Source: a virus
Strand: one strand, 5' to 3'
IMG/VR virus record: IMGVR_UViG_3300021139_000129
Coordinates: 1 to 25,856 of that record
Length of the DNA: 25,856 bases
Shown here: positions 2,627-11,425 of the stretch, piece by piece
How positions within the stretch are numbered: position 1 is the stretch's first letter
How the letters are laid out: each line of letters begins with the position of its first letter
The notes under the pieces: model-generated
Database searches by the model: none
Told to the model about the DNA's origin: nothing
Seen by the model: only the letters and a program-made list of their open reading frames with translations
Program-made: the position numbers and the translations under genes

Positions 2627-2836
2627 ATGGCTAACACGATAGAAGTAACGGATTGCGGTGATTGCTTTTTTGCTGAAACAATTTTAAGTGATAGAGGTAT
2701 TTATCATAAATGTTTTGCCAAATTTAAGTTATCAAAACCTTACATAAGTATTGATTTGGAAAGGCTTAATCAAAACTGCCCACTCAAACAATCATCAATC
2801 ACAATCACGCTAAAAACTAAAGAAAATGGAGAATAA
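2627..2836 (+). CDS. Small Cys-rich protein, possible zinc binding
   Basis: A 69-residue protein with four main cysteines in the arrangement CGDC (residues 10-13), C29 and a CPLK motif near residue 51, compatible with binding one zinc ion. Proteins with a C-terminal NCPLK motif recur in phage and mobile-element accessory regions without known function. The end overlaps the start of the next gene by 11 bases (ATG at 2826), so the two are probably coupled. Confidence 0.6.
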   Translation: MANTIEVTDCGDCFFAETILSDRGIYHKCFAKFKLSKPYISIDLERLNQNCPLKQSSITITLKTKENGE

Positions 2837-3326
2837 ATTGGAGTTTAGAAAGGACGCAAAAAGCCACGTTATATGGGTTGAAATTGGGTATATTTTAAAA
2901 GGCTCGCTTGAATTAGTACCCGATTCTAAGGGGTGGCTATTAACTTGGTCTTTTGAAAATCTAACAGCATCCGAACTACGCCAAATAGCAGACAAGTTGG
3001 ATGAATTGAACGGGGTTAAAGATATTGTTTATTCTGAAATAATAAAACAACATATTGAATTTACTTCAAAAACATTTACCAATGGAACTTCTTATGGTGC
3101 ATTACTTCATCTAAAACGTGAAATTGAAGAAGTAATGGAAGAGTCTGACAAAAATAAATTAGCGGTTGAATTTGCTGATTGTTTAGGTTGCTTAATAGAT
3201 AGTGCTAATAGGGCAGGTGTTACACCTGATATTCTTTTTAAAGCCTTTTATGATAAGTTACAACTCAATAAATCAAGACAATGGCAAGATAATGGCGATG
3301 GGTCTTATTCACATATTAAACACTAA
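2826..3326 (+). CDS. MazG-like (DUF550-type) nucleotide pyrophosphohydrolase with extra N-terminal domain
   Basis: A 166-residue protein. Residues about 75-166 fit the phage MazG-like/dATP-dGTP diphosphohydrolase family: an HLK helix, the metal-binding EExxE motif (Glu101, Glu102, Glu105), ExxD (Glu115, Asp118), then RAGVTPD, NKSRQW (148-153) and a terminal SHIKH matching the usual conserved N-x-x-R-x-W...H end. Such enzymes hydrolyse nucleoside triphosphates to monophosphate and pyrophosphate; in phages they clean or bias nucleotide pools. The N-terminal ~65 residues are not part of the known domain and may be a partner-binding module. Whether the substrate is dATP, dGTP or a modified nucleotide cannot be told. 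No purZ-like gene is present in the window. Confidence 0.75.
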   Translation: MENKLEFRKDAKSHVIWVEIGYILKGSLELVPDSKGWLLTWSFENLTASELRQIADKLDELNGVKDIVYSEIIKQHIEFTSKTFTNGTSYGALLHLKREIEEVMEESDKNKLAVEFADCLGCLIDSANRAGVTPDILFKAFYDKLQLNKSRQWQDNGDGSYSHIKH

Positions 3327-5749: not shown

Positions 5750-6202
5750 TTAAATAATTCTTCCCATATCAGCATAGCTATAGTACCCATTGTCACTTGT
5801 CATTATCATGTGGTCCAGCAGGGTAATGTCAAGCAAAGCCATAGCATCTTTTATTTTTCTTGTGGCTGCATCGTCGGCAGAGCTTGGTGTGCAGTTTCCG
5901 CTTGGGTGGTTATGTGCAACCACTATCTTTGTGCATCCAGCGGCATTCAGCGCCACTGTAGCAATGACCCTAATATCAACTAAGGTTTGGGTAACACAGC
6001 CCTTAGAAACCTTGTAATATCCAATAACAGTATTACGCTGGTTCAAGCAGAGCAGTATAAATTCTTCCACCCAGTCAATTTGATTGACGTCAAATAAGCT
6101 CTTTACTACTGTAGCCATTTCAGCTGAATTGGTTATTCGGCTAACTTCATTACGGATGCCTGTCTTGTATTTAACGGCTATTTCAATTTCAGGTACTCTC
6201 AT
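5750..6202 (-). CDS. radC: RadC-family JAB/MPN domain protein
   Basis: A 150-residue protein consisting almost entirely of the RadC JAMM/MPN fold. Metal-binding residues are intact: a Glu in VEEF (46-47), His97 and His99 in AHNHPSG, and Asp110 in PSSADDAAT, followed by LLDHMIMTSDNGYYSYAD. Short RadC proteins like this are frequent on Bacteroidota mobile elements and lack the N-terminal helix-hairpin-helix of the chromosomal protein. A metalloprotease or deubiquitinase-like activity is inferred from the fold, but its biological role is not established. It has its own promoter with a palindromic operator and shares a 21-base leader with the next minus-strand gene upstream. Confidence 0.93.
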   Translation of the reverse strand: MRVPEIEIAVKYKTGIRNEVSRITNSAEMATVVKSLFDVNQIDWVEEFILLCLNQRNTVIGYYKVSKGCVTQTLVDIRVIATVALNAAGCTKIVVAHNHPSGNCTPSSADDAATRKIKDAMALLDITLLDHMIMTSDNGYYSYADMGRII

Positions 6203-6220
6203 TGTCGTAGATTGGTTTTT
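6200..6220 (-). repeat. 21-base leader repeat, copy 1 (radC start)
   Basis: Read on the minus strand this ends in AACCAATCTACGACAATG, the last three bases being the radC start codon. The same 21 bases occur at 7273-7293 directly before another start codon. The coding sequences after the two copies differ, so the repeat is confined to the leader. Confidence 0.9.
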
Positions 6221-6241
6221 TTTGTTTTTTTTATTATAATG

Positions 6242-6285
6242 TAAAGGTAAGTATCTGATAATTGTAAACCAAAATAAATTGGTTT
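6242..6285 (-). promoter_or_regulatory. radC promoter with AAACCAA/TTGGTTT operator
   Basis: On the minus strand: palindrome AAACCAA-N6-TTGGTTT (6266-6285) and, 16 bases downstream, the -7 box TACCTTTA (6242-6249). A TTG inside the palindrome is 20 bases from the -7 box, matching the Bacteroidota TTG-N19-21-TAnnTTTG promoter. A protein on the palindrome would cover the -33 element. The same arrangement with identical spacing is found at 8097-8140. Confidence 0.7.
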
Positions 6286-6355
6286 AAAAAATGCAAAAAC
6301 CCCTGAAAGCATTGCTCACAGCGGAAACTATTTTTAAAGTTTTTTTTGATTAACT

Positions 6356-6370
6356 GTATCAAATAGATAC
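6356..6370. promoter_or_regulatory. GTATC-N5-GATAC palindrome, copy 1
   Basis: GTATCAAATAGATAC; the second copy at 8220-8234 differs by one base at the centre. It lies upstream of the radC promoter and just past the end of the minus-strand gene at 6382. There is no plus-strand gene for it to control, so it may act at a distance on radC or be a leftover of a duplicated control region. Confidence 0.6.
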
Positions 6371-6381
6371 ATTATATCTTT

Positions 6382-7275
6382 TTAAGATACACATACTTTT
6401 GCCAGTATATTCTTTGCTGAATAAATGGCATTACCTGTATGCTTTCTTTGCCAGCATCCATAAAAAGGGCTCCAGTGAAAGCCGCTACTTTTTAGCTCTT
6501 GCCTAATATGGTCAGCTGGCTTGCCGTCAAAAAATAATTGGAGCCTGTCTATTTCAAAATTGGTGACCACCTTAACACCGTTTATTACCACTTCTGCAGG
6601 AGCACCCTTTTCTTCCTGTTGAGCCTTAAGCTGTTCTTTTTGCTCCAGCTCTTTCACTCTTTGCTCAACCCTTTTAATATTAGCAAGGTTATTTTGAAGC
6701 TTGTAAGGTGGTATGCCTAAATATCCCATACTGTCAGGTTTTAAAACTTGGTCAATCGTTTCTAACTGTAAGCCAAGCTCCCTGAGCATTTGTGATTTAC
6801 CCTCAAATGGTGTTTTCTTGCGGATAATAGCATTGATAGACTTGTATAGCTCTTGGGCTTTCTTAAGGTCTGCCAGCTTTTTGACTTGTATAGCCAGCTC
6901 ACCACCTGCCTCAGCGACAGCGGCTTTCCTTGTACTCCTTTCAAATGCTTTCAGCATGCGTTCACGCCAAGCTTGAAAGTCATTGTACTTATTTTCTTCC
7001 CAGCGATTAAACTTCTTAGCCCTGTCAATCGGGAAGCGTGCTGGTCCAGTTATCATGCTTGATATGCACCTGCTTTTTGAGCTTAGCCAGCTGGATAAAT
7101 GCTGCCTGTACTTCTGTATGTACTTGTCACGGTAATGTGATGGCACGCTGGCAAGGTCAGCAGATAGCTGGCTTTCAAATTGAGCAATGGTGCTTTCTGC
7201 ACGCTTTTCAGGGCTAAAGCTGGTGCCTAAATGTGCACGGTAGGCACTTTCTTTTAAATCGGTTAAATGTGGCAT
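6382..7275 (-). CDS. Unknown protein with C-terminal GFxWSPxxxxWQR motif
   Basis: A 297-residue protein. The N-terminal two thirds are helical and basic, with a coiled coil near residues 195-225 (NLANIKRVEQRVKELEQKEQ). The last ~60 residues (VVTNFEIDRLQLFFDGKP...LKSSGFHWSPFYGCWQRKHTGNAIYSA) form a small domain I recall from many phage and plasmid proteins of Bacteroidota, where it often follows variable helical regions; its role is unknown. The gene follows the PP-loop enzyme gene after 23 bases and is probably in its operon. Its start codon carries the 21-base leader also found before radC. Confidence 0.8.
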   Translation of the reverse strand: MPHLTDLKESAYRAHLGTSFSPEKRAESTIAQFESQLSADLASVPSHYRDKYIQKYRQHLSSWLSSKSRCISSMITGPARFPIDRAKKFNRWEENKYNDFQAWRERMLKAFERSTRKAAVAEAGGELAIQVKKLADLKKAQELYKSINAIIRKKTPFEGKSQMLRELGLQLETIDQVLKPDSMGYLGIPPYKLQNNLANIKRVEQRVKELEQKEQLKAQQEEKGAPAEVVINGVKVVTNFEIDRLQLFFDGKPADHIRQELKSSGFHWSPFYGCWQRKHTGNAIYSAKNILAKVCVS

Positions 7276-7293
7276 TGTCGTAGATTGGTTTTT
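7273..7293 (-). repeat. 21-base leader repeat, copy 2
   Basis: Identical over 21 bases to 6200-6220 and likewise ending in a start codon on the minus strand. Here it fills nearly the whole 23-base gap between two genes of one operon, so it works within a transcript and is more likely a translation element than a promoter. Confidence 0.9.
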
Positions 7294-7298
7294 ATGTG

Positions 7299-8039
7299 TT
7301 AACTAATATATTTATCAAGTGTTATAGGAGTTTGTTTAGCACCCAGCATCATTGTATGGTTATGCTTTAATTCAAGTTCAAGCACTCTTTTAAATAATTC
7401 TGGGTTATGTACAGCAGCAATTCTTAAATCATGTTTGCTTGACATTATGCAAAAACAGCAGCTAAGTCTTGTCATGCCTAAGCTATAAGCATAATGAGGC
7501 TGCTGACCAGCATTTTTAATTGTTTGCCAAACTTCTTCAAGAAGCATATCATGTATCGGCAACCATACATACCATTCACGGCCTGCCTTTGAATTTGTAG
7601 TGTCATACTTAAGCACAGGCTTTTTAGACCTTGCTGGGCTTTCCTGTGCCCTAAGACCCCAGCAACTTACCACTTTAGTAAAGCTATTAGCTTTCATGTA
7701 GTGTCTAATAAGTTTGTCAAGTGGGTTTCTTTTAAGGTCACTGGTGCATTGCCTATACTTAGAGCTTGGGAACATGCCTCTATGCTCTACCATATCAAAA
7801 AAAGTCTTTTCAGCTTGGCAGTAATGAACTGGTATATTTTGTGCAGTAGCTTCAATGTGGGTTTGTACGCCTTCCCATTCAACCTCAGGCAATACAGCAT
7901 GTGCAATGATTAGTTGATTAGCTGGTATAATTTTAGCTAATAATGCTGTCATGGCTTGGCTATCCTTGCCACCTGAGCTGTTTATAACAAAAAGTGCACC
8001 GTCTTCAATTAGCTGGGTTATTTGTGCAGGTATATTCAT
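7299..8039 (-). CDS. PP-loop (PAPS reductase-like) enzyme with cysteine cluster
   Basis: A 246-residue N-type ATP pyrophosphatase. SSGGKDS (21-27) is the PP-loop. RQCTSDLKR (Cys98), CWGLRAQES (126-134) and LSCCFC (Cys194, Cys195, Cys197) follow the pattern of PAPS-reductase-family proteins that hold an Fe-S cluster or a reactive cysteine. Phage versions are widespread and their substrate is mostly unknown; relatives include CysH and the DNA phosphorothioation enzyme DndC. No DndD/E-type partner is visible. Divergent from the ParB-like/IbrA-like cassette across a 226-base control region; probably cotranscribed with the 297-residue gene downstream. Activity on nucleic acid is inference. Confidence 0.88.
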   Translation of the reverse strand: MNIPAQITQLIEDGALFVINSSGGKDSQAMTALLAKIIPANQLIIAHAVLPEVEWEGVQTHIEATAQNIPVHYCQAEKTFFDMVEHRGMFPSSKYRQCTSDLKRNPLDKLIRHYMKANSFTKVVSCWGLRAQESPARSKKPVLKYDTTNSKAGREWYVWLPIHDMLLEEVWQTIKNAGQQPHYAYSLGMTRLSCCFCIMSSKHDLRIAAVHNPELFKRVLELELKHNHTMMLGAKQTPITLDKYIS

Positions 8040-8096
8040 TTTTAGAATTTATTTAGATTTTACCTTGTTTGTTTGTGTGTGTTTTTTATTATGCTG

Positions 8097-8140
8097 TAAA
8101 AGTAAAGTGCTGATAATTATAAACCAAACAAATTTGGTTT
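8097..8140 (-). promoter_or_regulatory. Promoter of the PP-loop gene with AAACCAA/TTGGTTT operator
   Basis: On the minus strand: palindrome AAACCAAA-N4-TTTGGTTT (8121-8140), 16 bases, then the -7 box TACTTTTA (8097-8104). A TTG in the palindrome sits 20 bases from the -7 box. Predicted transcript start near 8090, giving a leader of about 50 bases. Layout and spacing equal those at radC. Confidence 0.7.
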
Positions 8141-8219
8141 ACAAAGTTGCAAAATGGCTGAATTCCTTACTGAGTGCAACAGGTATTTTTAAAAATATAT
8201 AATCAAATAGAGCTAATTA

Positions 8220-8244
8220 GTATCAAATTGATACATTAACTTTG
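8220..8244 (+). promoter_or_regulatory. Promoter of the ParB/IbrA-like cassette with GTATC palindrome
   Basis: A perfect 15-base palindrome GTATCAAATTGATAC (8220-8234) is followed after two bases by TAACTTTG (8237-8244), an exact match to the Bacteroidota -7 consensus TAnnTTTG. Transcription would begin near 8251, about 15 bases before the ATG at 8266. A protein bound to the palindrome would sit between the -33 and -7 elements and so most likely represses. Confidence 0.7.
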
Positions 8245-8265
8245 TTTAGCACTAAAGTGGACAAT

Positions 8266-8844
8266 ATGCCTAAAGCAAAACCAACCGCAGACACAGTATC
8301 ATTAAGCACCCTTAAGCTCAACCCTAACAATCCACGCATCATAAAAGACCACCGTTTTAGAGCTTTATGCAAAAGCCTCAGTGAGTTTAGCAAGGGTATG
8401 GAGCTAAAGCCTATCATAGTGGATGATACCAATATGATACTGGCTGGCAATATGCGTTATCGTGCCCTGCAAGAATTAGGCCATAAAGAAGTGCCTGCCA
8501 GCTGGGTAAGGAAAGCTGACCAGCTTACTGATATAGAGAAAAAGCGTTTTGTGCTTATAGATAACGAGGCATTTGGTGAAACTGACTTTGAGATACTGGC
8601 TAATGAATGGGACTTGGAGCTGGCAACAGACTGGGGTATCAGCATTCCTGGCTTTGGTGGCACACTGGAAGAGCACGCAGAAAGGCAAGAAAGAGTGAAC
8701 AATGAAATACTACAGTATAACATTGTCTTTAATGACCAAAGCGAATATGAACGCTTTATTGCATGGGTACGCAAGCTGAAAAATGCTACCAGCGACCCTG
8801 ATGCCACAATTTCACAGTTAATACTTGAAGCCATTGGAGAATAA
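8266..8844 (+). CDS. ParB-like N-terminal domain protein
   Basis: This start gives 192 residues. The ParB/Srx-fold domain covers about residues 10-90: LKLNPNNPR (16-24), LKPIIVDD, then ILAGNMRYRAL (58-68), which corresponds to the nucleotide-binding box GERRxRA of ParB. The C-terminal part (YNIVFNDQSEYERFIAWVRKLK) is a small alpha/beta segment found in phage ParB-like proteins and not in chromosomal ParB. The frame extends to a TTG at 8242, but that codon overlaps the predicted -7 box; the ATG at 8266 is preferred. In phages such proteins often accompany DNA modification or terminase genes. The 3' end overlaps the IbrA-like gene by 20 bases. Confidence 0.88.
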   Translation: MPKAKPTADTVSLSTLKLNPNNPRIIKDHRFRALCKSLSEFSKGMELKPIIVDDTNMILAGNMRYRALQELGHKEVPASWVRKADQLTDIEKKRFVLIDNEAFGETDFEILANEWDLELATDWGISIPGFGGTLEEHAERQERVNNEILQYNIVFNDQSEYERFIAWVRKLKNATSDPDATISQLILEAIGE

Positions 8845-9958
8845 AGAGCTTGATATAGTGGATGATAGCCGTGTAAAACGGTATATTGACATTGATGTGT
8901 ACACTGCTGCCAAGAAGCGCATAAACTATATCATTGACACCTTTGACCGTGTGTTCGTAAGCTTCTCAGGTGGCAAAGACAGCCTTGCAGTGCTTAAGCT
9001 GGTAGAGGAAGTATATGAGGAAAGAGGCATTAAAAAGCCTATTGATGTCATATTTAGGGATGAAGAAGTGATACAGGATGATGTTATAGACTTTGTATGT
9101 AGTTTCCGCGACAACCCGAAATACAACCTGAGATACTATGCTGTGAGGCAAAAAAGCGTCAAGTATATACTGGGTGAGGTGCTGCCATATATCCAATGGG
9201 ACAATGATAGGCCACATATCAGGCCTAAACCTGACTTTGCATTGACTGACCCCAAGGATAGGCTGCATGACCAAAATAGCATGGACGGCTTTCTGTTTGA
9301 AAACATAAAGGGCAAAATAGCCTTTCTTATGGGCATCAGGGCAGACGAGAGCCTTATAAGGCTTAGGAGCTGCATCAACCGTAAAACAGACAACTATATA
9401 ACCAAGAGCACTGCTGATATTGCCAATATTCGCATTTGCAAACCTATATATGACTGGACAGAGGATGATATATTTATTTACTTCTATAGGAATAACATAA
9501 AATATTGTGTCAGCTATGACATACAGAGCTTAGCTGGCAAAGCATTAAGAGTAGCGACACCACTGGTAGCTGAAAGCGCAAAGCAATTTGATGTACTTAA
9601 GCGTATGTACCCGAAGTTCTATGAGCAAATAATAGCCATATTCCCTGAGATGCTTCTGCAAGAACGCTACTATAAGGAAATTGACAAAGGCAGCAAAATG
9701 GATAAGTACCCACACAGCTTTGCTGGAGTTAAGCAGTATATAGCAGATACCAACCCTGACGCTGCCAGCCGTGCCAAGTTTACCAAGTATGTTGACAATG
9801 CGATGAAAATAAGGCTACAGAAAGTAAGGGGTGGCAGCACTAATCTTGGTGGTTATCCGATACTGCATGTATTTAAACATATTATCAGTGGCAATAAGTC
9901 AATGATACAACCCAAACTAAAACCAAGCAAAGCAGACTTAGAGTATGAAGGACTATAA
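8825..9958 (+). CDS. IbrA-like PAPS reductase-family protein
   Basis: Up to 377 residues. PP-loop SFSGGKDS (46-53), DVIFRDEEVI (74-83), GIRADESLIR (170-179) and KPIYDWTEDDI (206-216) match the IbrA/DUF3440 branch of the PAPS reductase superfamily. IbrA was described with IbrB as a prophage-encoded pair affecting expression of Eib proteins in E. coli, but its chemistry is unknown. An in-frame stop at 8819-8821 and the absence of any ATG before the PP-loop mean that translation must start at TTG (8825 or 8834) or GTG (8858). It differs clearly from the other PP-loop protein at 7299-8039. It overlaps the HNH-like gene by 14 bases; the IbrB-like partner lies two genes downstream. Confidence 0.88.
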   Translation: MKPLENKELDIVDDSRVKRYIDIDVYTAAKKRINYIIDTFDRVFVSFSGGKDSLAVLKLVEEVYEERGIKKPIDVIFRDEEVIQDDVIDFVCSFRDNPKYNLRYYAVRQKSVKYILGEVLPYIQWDNDRPHIRPKPDFALTDPKDRLHDQNSMDGFLFENIKGKIAFLMGIRADESLIRLRSCINRKTDNYITKSTADIANIRICKPIYDWTEDDIFIYFYRNNIKYCVSYDIQSLAGKALRVATPLVAESAKQFDVLKRMYPKFYEQIIAIFPEMLLQERYYKEIDKGSKMDKYPHSFAGVKQYIADTNPDAASRAKFTKYVDNAMKIRLQKVRGGSTNLGGYPILHVFKHIISGNKSMIQPKLKPSKADLEYEGL

Positions 9959-10358
9959 TGGGTTTTCAGGTGACTACCGTCAAAAGGTATATAACCAACA
10001 AAAGAGCTTAGGCCTTATGCTGGAAATAGCCAAGCAGCCATGTGATATATGCGGCATTCATGCGCCTAATATGATGGGGCATACGGAAGATTACGACAAT
10101 GTCTATGACCTTAGGCCTGTATGCGTGGAGTGCCACATGAAGCTGCATGCACGCTTTTCCCGTGCTGGCGCATGGATAAACCACCTTAAGCAAGTGGCGG
10201 CAGGCTACAGGTGCAGACCATGGACAAGCGTATGGGACTATTTTGGCAACCAGCAAGACAATAGATACCCTGAGTATGCCAATATAGACCCAGCAACGCT
10301 GGGTGATAAATGGTACCACAAACTTTTAATGACAAAAATAAACCTCAACCATGAGTAA
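9945..10358 (+). CDS. HNH-type zinc-binding nuclease-like protein
   Basis: A 137-residue protein. CDIC (33-36) and CVECH (60-64) form a zinc-binding set, and between and after them GHTEDYDNVYDLRPVC and MKLHARF (His68) reproduce the HNH layout in which His46/Asp and the late His act on DNA. The C-terminal half (WTSVWDYFGNQQD...) is not assigned. Small HNH proteins near terminases can assist packaging in some phages, but here the gene lies inside the IbrA/IbrB-like cassette rather than next to terS. It overlaps both neighbours (14 and 8 bases). Catalytic competence is plausible, not certain. Confidence 0.75.
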   Translation: MKDYNGFSGDYRQKVYNQQKSLGLMLEIAKQPCDICGIHAPNMMGHTEDYDNVYDLRPVCVECHMKLHARFSRAGAWINHLKQVAAGYRCRPWTSVWDYFGNQQDNRYPEYANIDPATLGDKWYHKLLMTKINLNHE

Positions 10359-10947
10359 ACGCTTCAATGATGAAAGCTACCTTATAGACTGGAGAGATGC
10401 AGGCGCATATCCTGAAATCCACAATGATATTTGCACGCTTATACTTAACAATTCTAATGGCAGGTTTTTAGACCTTGGATGCTGCACAGGGCTTATAGGT
10501 CAGCGCCTACTTAGCTCAGGGCTTTACGCCTTTGGTATTGAGGGCAGCCGTAGGAATATTGGCACAGGTAAAATGTACGGCATAAAGCTTGAAATGGTGC
10601 AGTTGTCTATTACCACCGTTCAGCACATAGACCTAATTTTTGACCATTGCCAGCTCCGTGGAATAAATAGTATAGTGGCGAGGAGGGTCTTTGTGGAGCT
10701 GTTTAGCCATAACCTTGCCATGATGCGATACTTTGCCATGAAAGCATGGGTGAGTGGCATTGAAGAGATTTACATACAGGGTAGGCAGGTGACCAGCCAA
10801 TCCAGCAACCCGTTAAACTGTGTTGAAAAGGAATGCACACAGCTTAGTGATTATTATAAAGTCAAATTGATTAGTGGTGAATGTGCCATTATGATTAAAA
10901 AAACAGCAGATGAAATCAACAGTATTCACCAACGAGCCGATAAGTAA
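10351..10947 (+). CDS. SAM-dependent methyltransferase-like protein
   Basis: A 198-residue protein with a class I motif I FLDLGCCTGLIGQRLLSSG (39-57) and an acidic residue at the end of the second strand (GIEGS, Glu64) for SAM ribose binding. After that the match weakens: no clear DPPY, NPPF or cytosine-type PC motif is seen, so it is not a standard DNA methylase. Part of the fold may have diverged (residues 90-150 are unusual). It lies between the HNH-like and IbrB-like genes and overlaps them by 8 and 38 bases. A substrate on DNA, RNA, protein or a small molecule cannot be told. Confidence 0.65.
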   Translation: MSKRFNDESYLIDWRDAGAYPEIHNDICTLILNNSNGRFLDLGCCTGLIGQRLLSSGLYAFGIEGSRRNIGTGKMYGIKLEMVQLSITTVQHIDLIFDHCQLRGINSIVARRVFVELFSHNLAMMRYFAMKAWVSGIEEIYIQGRQVTSQSSNPLNCVEKECTQLSDYYKVKLISGECAIMIKKTADEINSIHQRADK

Positions 10948-11425
10948 TATCATTTGGAAGGCTACCAGTGAGCTGGTGGCTAATGACTACAATCCAAACG
11001 TAGTATTTACGCCTGAAATGAACTTGCTCAAGCTCAGCCTTATGCTCAATGGCTGGATACAGCCTATACTCATTACCCAGCATAATGTCATTATTGACGG
11101 CTTCCATAGGTTTACGCTTTCAAGCCGTGACAAGGACATTATTGCTAAATATGGTGGTATGGTGCCCTGTGCAGTTCTAACGCTTACAGAGGCAGAAAGG
11201 ATGCTGTTAACGGTGCGTATCAATCGTGCTAAAGGTAGCCATATAGCCATAAAGATGCATGAGCTGGTGACAAAGGTGCATTTAGAGCATGGCATGACCA
11301 TTCCTGAGATAGCCAAGCAGATAGGTGGCACAAAGGCAGAAGTTGAGCTGTTGCTTAAAGAAAACGTATTTAAAGCCCTTGACATAGAGAATAAGCAATA
11401 CTCAAAAGCTTGGGTACCAAAATAA
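10910..11425 (+). CDS. IbrB-like ParB-fold protein
   Basis: A 171-residue protein. ELVANDYNPN (21-30), MLNGWIQPILI, IIDGFHRFTL (61-70), VRINRAKGSH (102-111) and an HTH-like GMTIPEIAKQIGGTKAEVELLL (128-149) match the IbrB type of ParB/Srx-fold protein, in which DGFHR replaces the GERRxRA box. IbrB is known only as the genetic partner of IbrA. The ATG lies inside the methyltransferase gene with a 38-base overlap, indicating coupled translation. It differs in motif from the ParB-like protein at 8266, so the operon carries two ParB-fold proteins of separate branches. Confidence 0.85.
   Translation: MKSTVFTNEPISNIIWKATSELVANDYNPNVVFTPEMNLLKLSLMLNGWIQPILITQHNVIIDGFHRFTLSSRDKDIIAKYGGMVPCAVLTLTEAERMLLTVRINRAKGSHIAIKMHELVTKVHLEHGMTIPEIAKQIGGTKAEVELLLKENVFKALDIENKQYSKAWVPK

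Follow-up and report, generated by a model that had tools for sequence, protein, structure and literature searches.

Five overlapping genes on the plus strand of a viral DNA record (IMG/VR record IMGVR_UViG_3300021139_000129, positions 1 to 25,856; this whole stretch of 25,856 bases is called the window) were found to form a cassette that is probably devoted to modification of phage DNA. The cassette spans 8242-11425, immediately upstream of the terminase genes, and encodes a ParB-type protein, the PP-loop enzyme IbrA, an HNH-fold protein, an S-adenosylmethionine (SAM) methyltransferase, and IbrB, as seen in Table 1. A first-pass annotation had listed these five open reading frames (ORFs) and one on the minus strand, and all six, together with the overlaps of 20, 14, 8, and 38 bases, were reproduced exactly. 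That annotation had made its proposal of a joint function depend on co-occurrence of the genes in other phages, which proved to be very strong. Since the same families are found together in dozens of unrelated phages, the cassette is not a chance grouping. ParB, IbrA, IbrB, the HNH-fold protein, and either a methyltransferase or a GNAT acetyltransferase are inherited as one unit across phages of very different hosts. What is new is the cassette and its interpretation, not IbrA and IbrB as gene names.

The cassette is inherited as a unit

Viral contigs were scanned with an IbrA alignment, which gave at least 80 loci, and loci were merged at 97% IbrA identity to define the window's clade with 75 non-redundant members. 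The loci came from sequence-pattern scans, and the numbers of loci found are lower bounds. The same loci served to build the family profiles, which were run on all locus ORFs. IbrB was present in 74 of the 75 clade loci, ParB in 72, and the HNH-fold family in 62. As a control, 80 IbrA loci with full flanks were taken from outside the clade; IbrB was found in 79 and GNAT in 5, and the HNH-fold and methyltransferase families were found in none of the 80.

Reverse linkage was properly tested for the methyltransferase only. A scan with the methyltransferase family reached 57 loci, of which 55 carried IbrA or IbrB, 49 carried the HNH-fold family, and none carried GNAT. One of the two loci with neither IbrA nor IbrB (L102) begins at a contig end; the other is L124 (1741-3272), where the methyltransferase follows an MT-A70 N6-adenine-type methyltransferase (1.7e-25) and precedes a terminase gene. 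Among phage isolates, 18 records contained the methyltransferase and 5 contained the HNH-fold family; every one belongs to a phage group with IbrA, and methyltransferase and IbrA lay near each other in all three isolate records examined. Across 84,980 genomes of bacteria and archaea, a Kribbella fragment (52%) was the best clade match among the matches listed and the others were at most 31%, so the clade appears to be mainly phage-borne. Prophages of Mycobacterium abscessus also carry the window-clade cassette.

A fixed gene order was rejected as a requirement because the cassette has two main orders. Of 65 loci, 23 have the methyltransferase or GNAT gene between IbrA and IbrB, mostly accompanied by the HNH-fold gene, and 39 have it following the IbrA-IbrB pair. 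Thus, the two genes inserted between IbrA and IbrB, which had been called unusual, turn out to be one of the recurring arrangements. In at least 21 of 52 testable loci, no more than 0.6 kb separates the end of the cassette from a gene for the terminase large subunit. HNH genes commonly adjoin terminase genes, and this placement could mean that the ParB-type and HNH-fold proteins aid the terminase at the packaging site, with the enzymes as passengers. We give this explanation very little credence, since the cassette of Rhizobium phage RHph_I4 is located away from the terminase and the HNH-fold family moves with IbrA rather than with the terminase.

Table 1. Genes of the cassette and the minus-strand neighbor in the window
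Feature	Coordinates	Strand	Evidence
ParB_N-domain protein, 200 aa	8242..8844	+	Pfam ParB_N 7e-7
IbrA, PP-loop (SGGKDS) enzyme, PAPS-reductase fold	8825..9958	+	phrog_2302 2.5e-101
HNH-fold zinc protein, altered active-site set	9945..10358	+	phrog_2340 2.5e-4 (weak); model
Small-molecule-type SAM methyltransferase	10351..10947	+	phrog_11826 3e-33
IbrB, ParB-type domain and C-terminal helix-turn-helix-like region	10910..11425	+	phrog_2159 1.5e-59
PAPS-reductase-like protein, apart from the cassette	7299-8039	-	PAPS_reduct E 2.4e-14; phrog_424 5e-39

A methyltransferase and an acetyltransferase exchange in one slot

The window methyltransferase has the SAM motif DxGxxxG and, beyond its PHROG family, matches only generic methyltransferase models. 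Across the 75 clade loci, this tailoring slot held the methyltransferase in 44, a small GNAT acetyltransferase in 22, neither in 9, and both in none. Loci found only via the methyltransferase bias this total, and the 35 loci reached through IbrA provide the fairer figure: 12 with the methyltransferase, 17 with GNAT, 6 with neither, and again none with both. The hypergeometric odds of zero overlap were 4e-12 for all loci and 2e-5 for the subset, uncorrected for relatedness. At least 11 changes between methyltransferase and GNAT were counted on the IbrA tree among 66 labelled rows. The window's sister locus (L005; IbrA 64% identical, full support) has the HNH-fold gene and a GNAT gene between IbrA and IbrB. 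A further close pair is formed by the Arthrobacter phages Salgado, which has the methyltransferase, and Kovu, which has GNAT. GNAT was first spotted in the slot by eye; of six cases tested with Pfam, four exceeded the curated cut-off and two fell below it. None of the GNAT matches belonged to the Mom family.

Two side observations concern this slot. In Rhizobium-type cassettes that have neither methyltransferase nor GNAT, an unclassified protein of ~200 aa adjoins the HNH-fold gene (L008:2332-2940 and L043:5438-6043) and may be a third tailoring enzyme. GNAT also occurs directly downstream of IbrA outside the window's clade (L086, L090, L232, L272, L274, and L289); therefore, the association with GNAT may predate those with the HNH-fold protein and the methyltransferase.

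The cassette shares a position with DNA-modification genes

The strongest reason to suspect DNA modification is the position that the cassette shares with Dpd and Que genes in mycobacteriophages. The CRB2 record and published data on Rosebush were used for this comparison. Compostia has the order ParB, two small genes, IbrA, IbrB, TerL, RuvC, and portal, and CRB2 has ParB-DpdA-QueC-QueD-QueE-FolE-TerS-TerL-RuvC-portal. The two phages are 48% identical in the gp1 ParB (169 residues), 59% in TerL, and 55% in the portal protein, and their RuvC proteins are homologous. Profiles confirmed CRB2 DpdA (phrog_7068, 2e-148) and QueC (Pfam, 1e-53). Typha carries ParB, DpdA, QueD, QueE, and FolE; Evaa, at the same position, carries a ParB-methyltransferase by annotation; and Thora has neither ParB nor such DNA-modification genes. 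The window ParB is only distantly related to these proteins (31% identical to Typha gp1).

In Rosebush DNA, dPreQ0 was shown by liquid chromatography-mass spectrometry at ~28% of G and is made by a DpdA/QueC-type gene set, and phage CAjan lacking dpdA loses restriction resistance (PMC6884629). The ParB of CRB2, gp1, is likely DpdB according to its authors (PMC6392294), and Compostia gp1 is a ParB-superfamily subunit in a Dpd-like operon position. Compared with the Dpd/preQ0 systems, the cassette occupies the same site between gp1 ParB and the terminase and has a homologous ParB subunit, but it carries the PP-loop enzyme IbrA in place of the DpdA transglycosylase and the Que genes; no match to a TGT/DpdA family was seen for any of the five cassette proteins.

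Other known systems offer partial likenesses. The phosphorothioation (Dnd/Ssp) systems also combine a PAPS-reductase-fold enzyme (DndC or SspD) with a ParB-superfamily partner, DndB, which has been classed in that superfamily (PMC10853773), but the cassette lacks the DndC cysteine set, and no ATPase DndD/SspC, DndE, or desulfurase was recognized in it. Cytosine hypermodification by CmoX/CmoY follows a similar scheme, in which a decorating enzyme acts after a single core reaction, and ParB genes are often found near CmoX, a newly described carboxymethyltransferase of DNA cytosine (PMC12783734). The core enzymes are, however, unrelated, and the candidate decorators here are the methyltransferase or GNAT. 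The IbrA/IbrB pair of Escherichia coli prophages (phrog_2302/phrog_2159) consists of the same two families, adjacent to each other in tailed phages and prophages, whereas the window's clade adds the upstream ParB, the HNH-fold protein, and the methyltransferase/GNAT slot.

The mycobacteriophage proteins at L308:785-1753 and L309:810-1673 are named queuine tRNA-ribosyltransferase (phrog_6059) and have weak matches to TET/JBP oxygenases (1e-5 and 8e-5, below the cut-off); their name may be wrong. The gp2 proteins of ChrisnMich and Phelemich have a queuine transferase name in PHROGs and a sub-threshold TET/JBP match, and were not used in the positional argument.

IbrA is closest to adenylyltransferases

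The window IbrA matches its PHROG family across residues 15-369 and is a member of it. The PP-loop SGGKDS and the motif GxRxxESxxR are at least 95% conserved across 235 IbrA relatives, and no cysteine is conserved throughout these 235. A predicted structure was obtained with a predicted local distance difference test (pLDDT) of 88.7 and a predicted template modeling score (pTM) of 0.78. Its nearest solved fold was the PAPS domain of FAD synthase (Z 17.5, 2.5 Å, 167 residues), with CysD (Z 15.6) and then FMN adenylyltransferase (Z 14.8) next. The PAPS and APS reductases gave Z 12-14, and tRNA and amidating PP-loop enzymes Z 10-13. FAD synthase and CysD share a P-x-x-D-W motif with IbrA, and FAD synthase shares a YC motif as well. 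IbrA differs from both enzymes in its ~120 extra C-terminal residues and its phage ParB/IbrB partnership.

The first-pass annotation had raised sulfur chemistry of the DndC kind. Under a sulfur explanation, IbrA would be a phosphorothioate sulfurtransferase like DndC or a CysH-like reductase for sulfur metabolism. The PAPS-reductase domain and weak DndC profile matches are consistent with this, but the DndC score of 27.1 bits is far under the NCBIfam TIGR03183 cut-off of 290.4 bits, and the DndC cysteine set is missing. Neither the window IbrA sequence nor its alignment contains the catalytic C-terminal ECGLH motif of CysH. Cys228 is kept in 72 of 75 members of the clade, but it falls at a position where human FAD synthase also has a cysteine. 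In addition, neither DndD/DndE nor a cysteine desulfurase was recognized beside IbrA. Sulfur insertion is therefore disfavored, as the nearest solved relatives are adenylyltransferases and both the DndC and CysH cysteine sets are absent, and we regard it as highly improbable. From the model, IbrA is more likely to adenylylate an acceptor than to transfer sulfur. Fold likeness alone gives no proof of function.

TilS, TtuA, and NcsA are among the PP-loop fold relatives, and TilS and TtcA alter tRNA. It could be proposed that IbrA alters tRNA to dodge anticodon nucleases and that the methyltransferase or GNAT finishes the tRNA base. However, the tRNA-enzyme folds scored below the adenylyltransferases (Z 15-17), and the presence of an HNH-fold protein along with two ParB-type proteins, as well as the position shared with DNA-modification genes, points to DNA, making RNA modification very unlikely.

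ParB and IbrB are predicted to handle DNA

For the window ParB, an ATG at 8266 is a likelier start than the TTG at 8242. The protein matches the PHROG families of ParB-like partition proteins and of ParB-type DNA methyltransferases, and the ParB family profile matches Spo0J at 7e-11. In 56 of 75 clade loci, ParB precedes IbrA at a distance of no more than 400 bp; it is predicted to be the upstream DNA-handling subunit.

IbrB was assigned to its family by its PHROG match, its DGFHR and NRAKGxH motifs, and the nearby IbrA gene. The IbrB profile aligns along ParB/Noc structures and into the helix-turn-helix region (E ~1e-7). DGFHR replaces the GxRR motif of ParB, and TIRxNRAKGxH replaces the nucleotide-contact region that follows GxRR; both are near invariant among 33 IbrB sequences. 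SerK, a relative that uses ATP/ADP, also matches the IbrB profile (3e-4). By homology, IbrB is predicted to bind nucleotide and DNA.

A ParB-type protein with a helix-turn-helix-like region could also suit a transcription regulator, in which IbrA/IbrB and ParB would bind DNA to switch late genes or genes of the prophage, and the enzymes would modify either the regulator itself or a nucleotide signal. Database names do give the pair as co-activators of prophage gene expression. This explanation seems quite unlikely to us because it leaves unexplained the invariant PP-loop site, the methyltransferase/GNAT exchange, and the place shared with DpdA/QueC.

The HNH-fold protein has an altered active-site set

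By sequence, the HNH-like protein has a weak PHROG match only. Its model (pLDDT 92.4) has a beta-beta-alpha core, and the best solved match was the Gme HNH nickase, with a moderate Z of 6.4 and a root-mean-square deviation of 2.0 Å over 72 residues. McrA and T4 endonuclease VII were weaker structural matches. Across 41 family sequences, R12, C33, C36, H46, E48, D49, Y50, C60, C63, H64, and H68 are conserved; these include two CxxC pairs and the set H46-x-E48-D49-Y50, H64, and H68. The beta-beta-alpha fold and the zinc cysteines of HNH endonucleases are thus present. The catalytic (D/H)-H...N...H set was not found in these 41 sequences, since the residue preceding H46 is variable and the HNH asparagine is unconserved, and this makes DNA cutting uncertain. 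For this gene, which had been described earlier as a nuclease, the fold is supported and nuclease activity is putative. The copy in L042 has lost some of the zinc cysteines and kept H46, E48, D49, Y50, H64, and H68; the survival of these six residues suggests that they form a putative active site.

The HNH-fold gene mostly adjoins the tailoring gene (≤250 bp in 52 of 66). In L008, L042, and L043 it lies ahead of ParB-IbrA, and the family tracks IbrA even there, so a common terminase-associated HNH was rejected. Its frequency in the clade, its place by the tailoring gene, its absence from the non-clade IbrA loci, and the support for the fold could all suit a weapon like restriction-modification, in which the HNH-fold protein would cut unmarked host DNA and the other four proteins would make a mark that mainly protects the phage from this nuclease of its own. 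This is unlikely in our view. A recognized copy is missing in 13 clade loci, the variable residue before the histidine and the unconserved asparagine leave cutting in doubt, and the gene may be inverted, as if expressed separately (L011 and L035).

Proposed mechanism and points against it

Among DNA modification, host-DNA targeting, and anti-restriction, which the first-pass annotation had offered together, DNA modification stands as the best reading, without the sulfur chemistry. A specific mechanism can be proposed tentatively. IbrA would spend ATP to adenylylate a target oxygen, more likely that of a carbonyl on a DNA base than that of a phosphate. The activated oxygen would then be replaced by a nucleophile, or serve as its point of attachment, and this nucleophile would probably be an amine. 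ParB and IbrB would bind DNA under nucleotide control and present the site. The methyltransferase in the window, or GNAT in the sister phage, would cap the newly added group, so that one mark would exist in serotype-like variants. The role of the HNH-fold protein would be to sense or act on unmarked DNA, or to nick DNA for access, and phage DNA bearing the mark would be protected from host restriction. The combination of base-oxygen adenylylation, amine installation, interchangeable methylation or acylation of the product, and reading of, or action on, unmarked DNA by an HNH-fold protein is possible, and we hold it with low confidence.

Several points weigh against DNA modification as the function. 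The positional argument draws on one phage group, and on a cassette with no recognized tailoring gene, since Compostia has neither methyltransferase nor GNAT. The (D/N/S)PP(Y/F/W) motif of N6/N4 DNA methyltransferases is absent from the window methyltransferase and is not among the conserved columns of its family; therefore, DNA need not be the direct substrate of this enzyme. IbrA and IbrB are named for co-activating prophage gene expression in E. coli. A DNA-marking enzyme carried in M. abscessus prophages must be kept in check. Finally, no report of modified-base analysis on the DNA of any cassette phage was found, and no paper in the open-access literature linked IbrA/IbrB experimentally to DNA modification.

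Neighboring genes and host of the window

The minus-strand PAPS-reductase-like gene had been grouped with the operon. The gene is real and encodes a PP-loop protein with the cysteine motifs RQCT and LSCCFC, but it does not travel with the cassette. Among the IbrA-clade loci searched, its family was found only in the window's own loci and in L003, which is the same virus, and it was therefore excluded as a cassette member. Its companions in a leftward gene group are RadC-like and primase-family genes, and it has relatives in other phages that are up to 50% identical.

Repeated intergenic segments were seen upstream of the leftward genes and of the cassette: 6217-6338 and 8072-8193 (72% identical), 6356-6384 and 8220-8248 (83%), and 6200-6220 and 7273-7293 (100%). 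They include GTATCAAATnGATAC palindrome-like sites and are perhaps shared promoters or operators.

Other window proteins include a tape-measure protein, the terminase large subunit, and VRR-NUC-type and RadC-type proteins. The gene starts have A-rich DNA upstream, a clear Shine-Dalgarno sequence was not seen at them, and the terminases of named isolates closest to that of the window come from phages of Parabacteroides, Phocaeicola, and Bacteroides. These features make a Bacteroidota host likely. The ORF at 2826-3326 encodes a dATP/dGTP pyrophosphohydrolase (PF04447, 1.8e-12). Enzymes that clear deoxynucleoside triphosphates go along with base replacement in some phages.

Implications

IbrA and IbrB are widespread phage genes that have been annotated variously as PAPS reductase, metabolic gene, ParB nuclease, and virulence co-activator. 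The structure of the cassette, the exchange of tailoring genes, and the shared position make this open annotation directly testable, and Compostia (host M. smegmatis), Salgado and Kovu (Arthrobacter), and 031MP004 (B. subtilis) are culturable phages that carry the cassette. If the tentative mechanism is right, related phages would carry different versions of one mark, made by a core reaction not known on DNA. Such a new phage DNA mark would bear on restriction evasion and on the catalogue of DNA-modifying enzymes.

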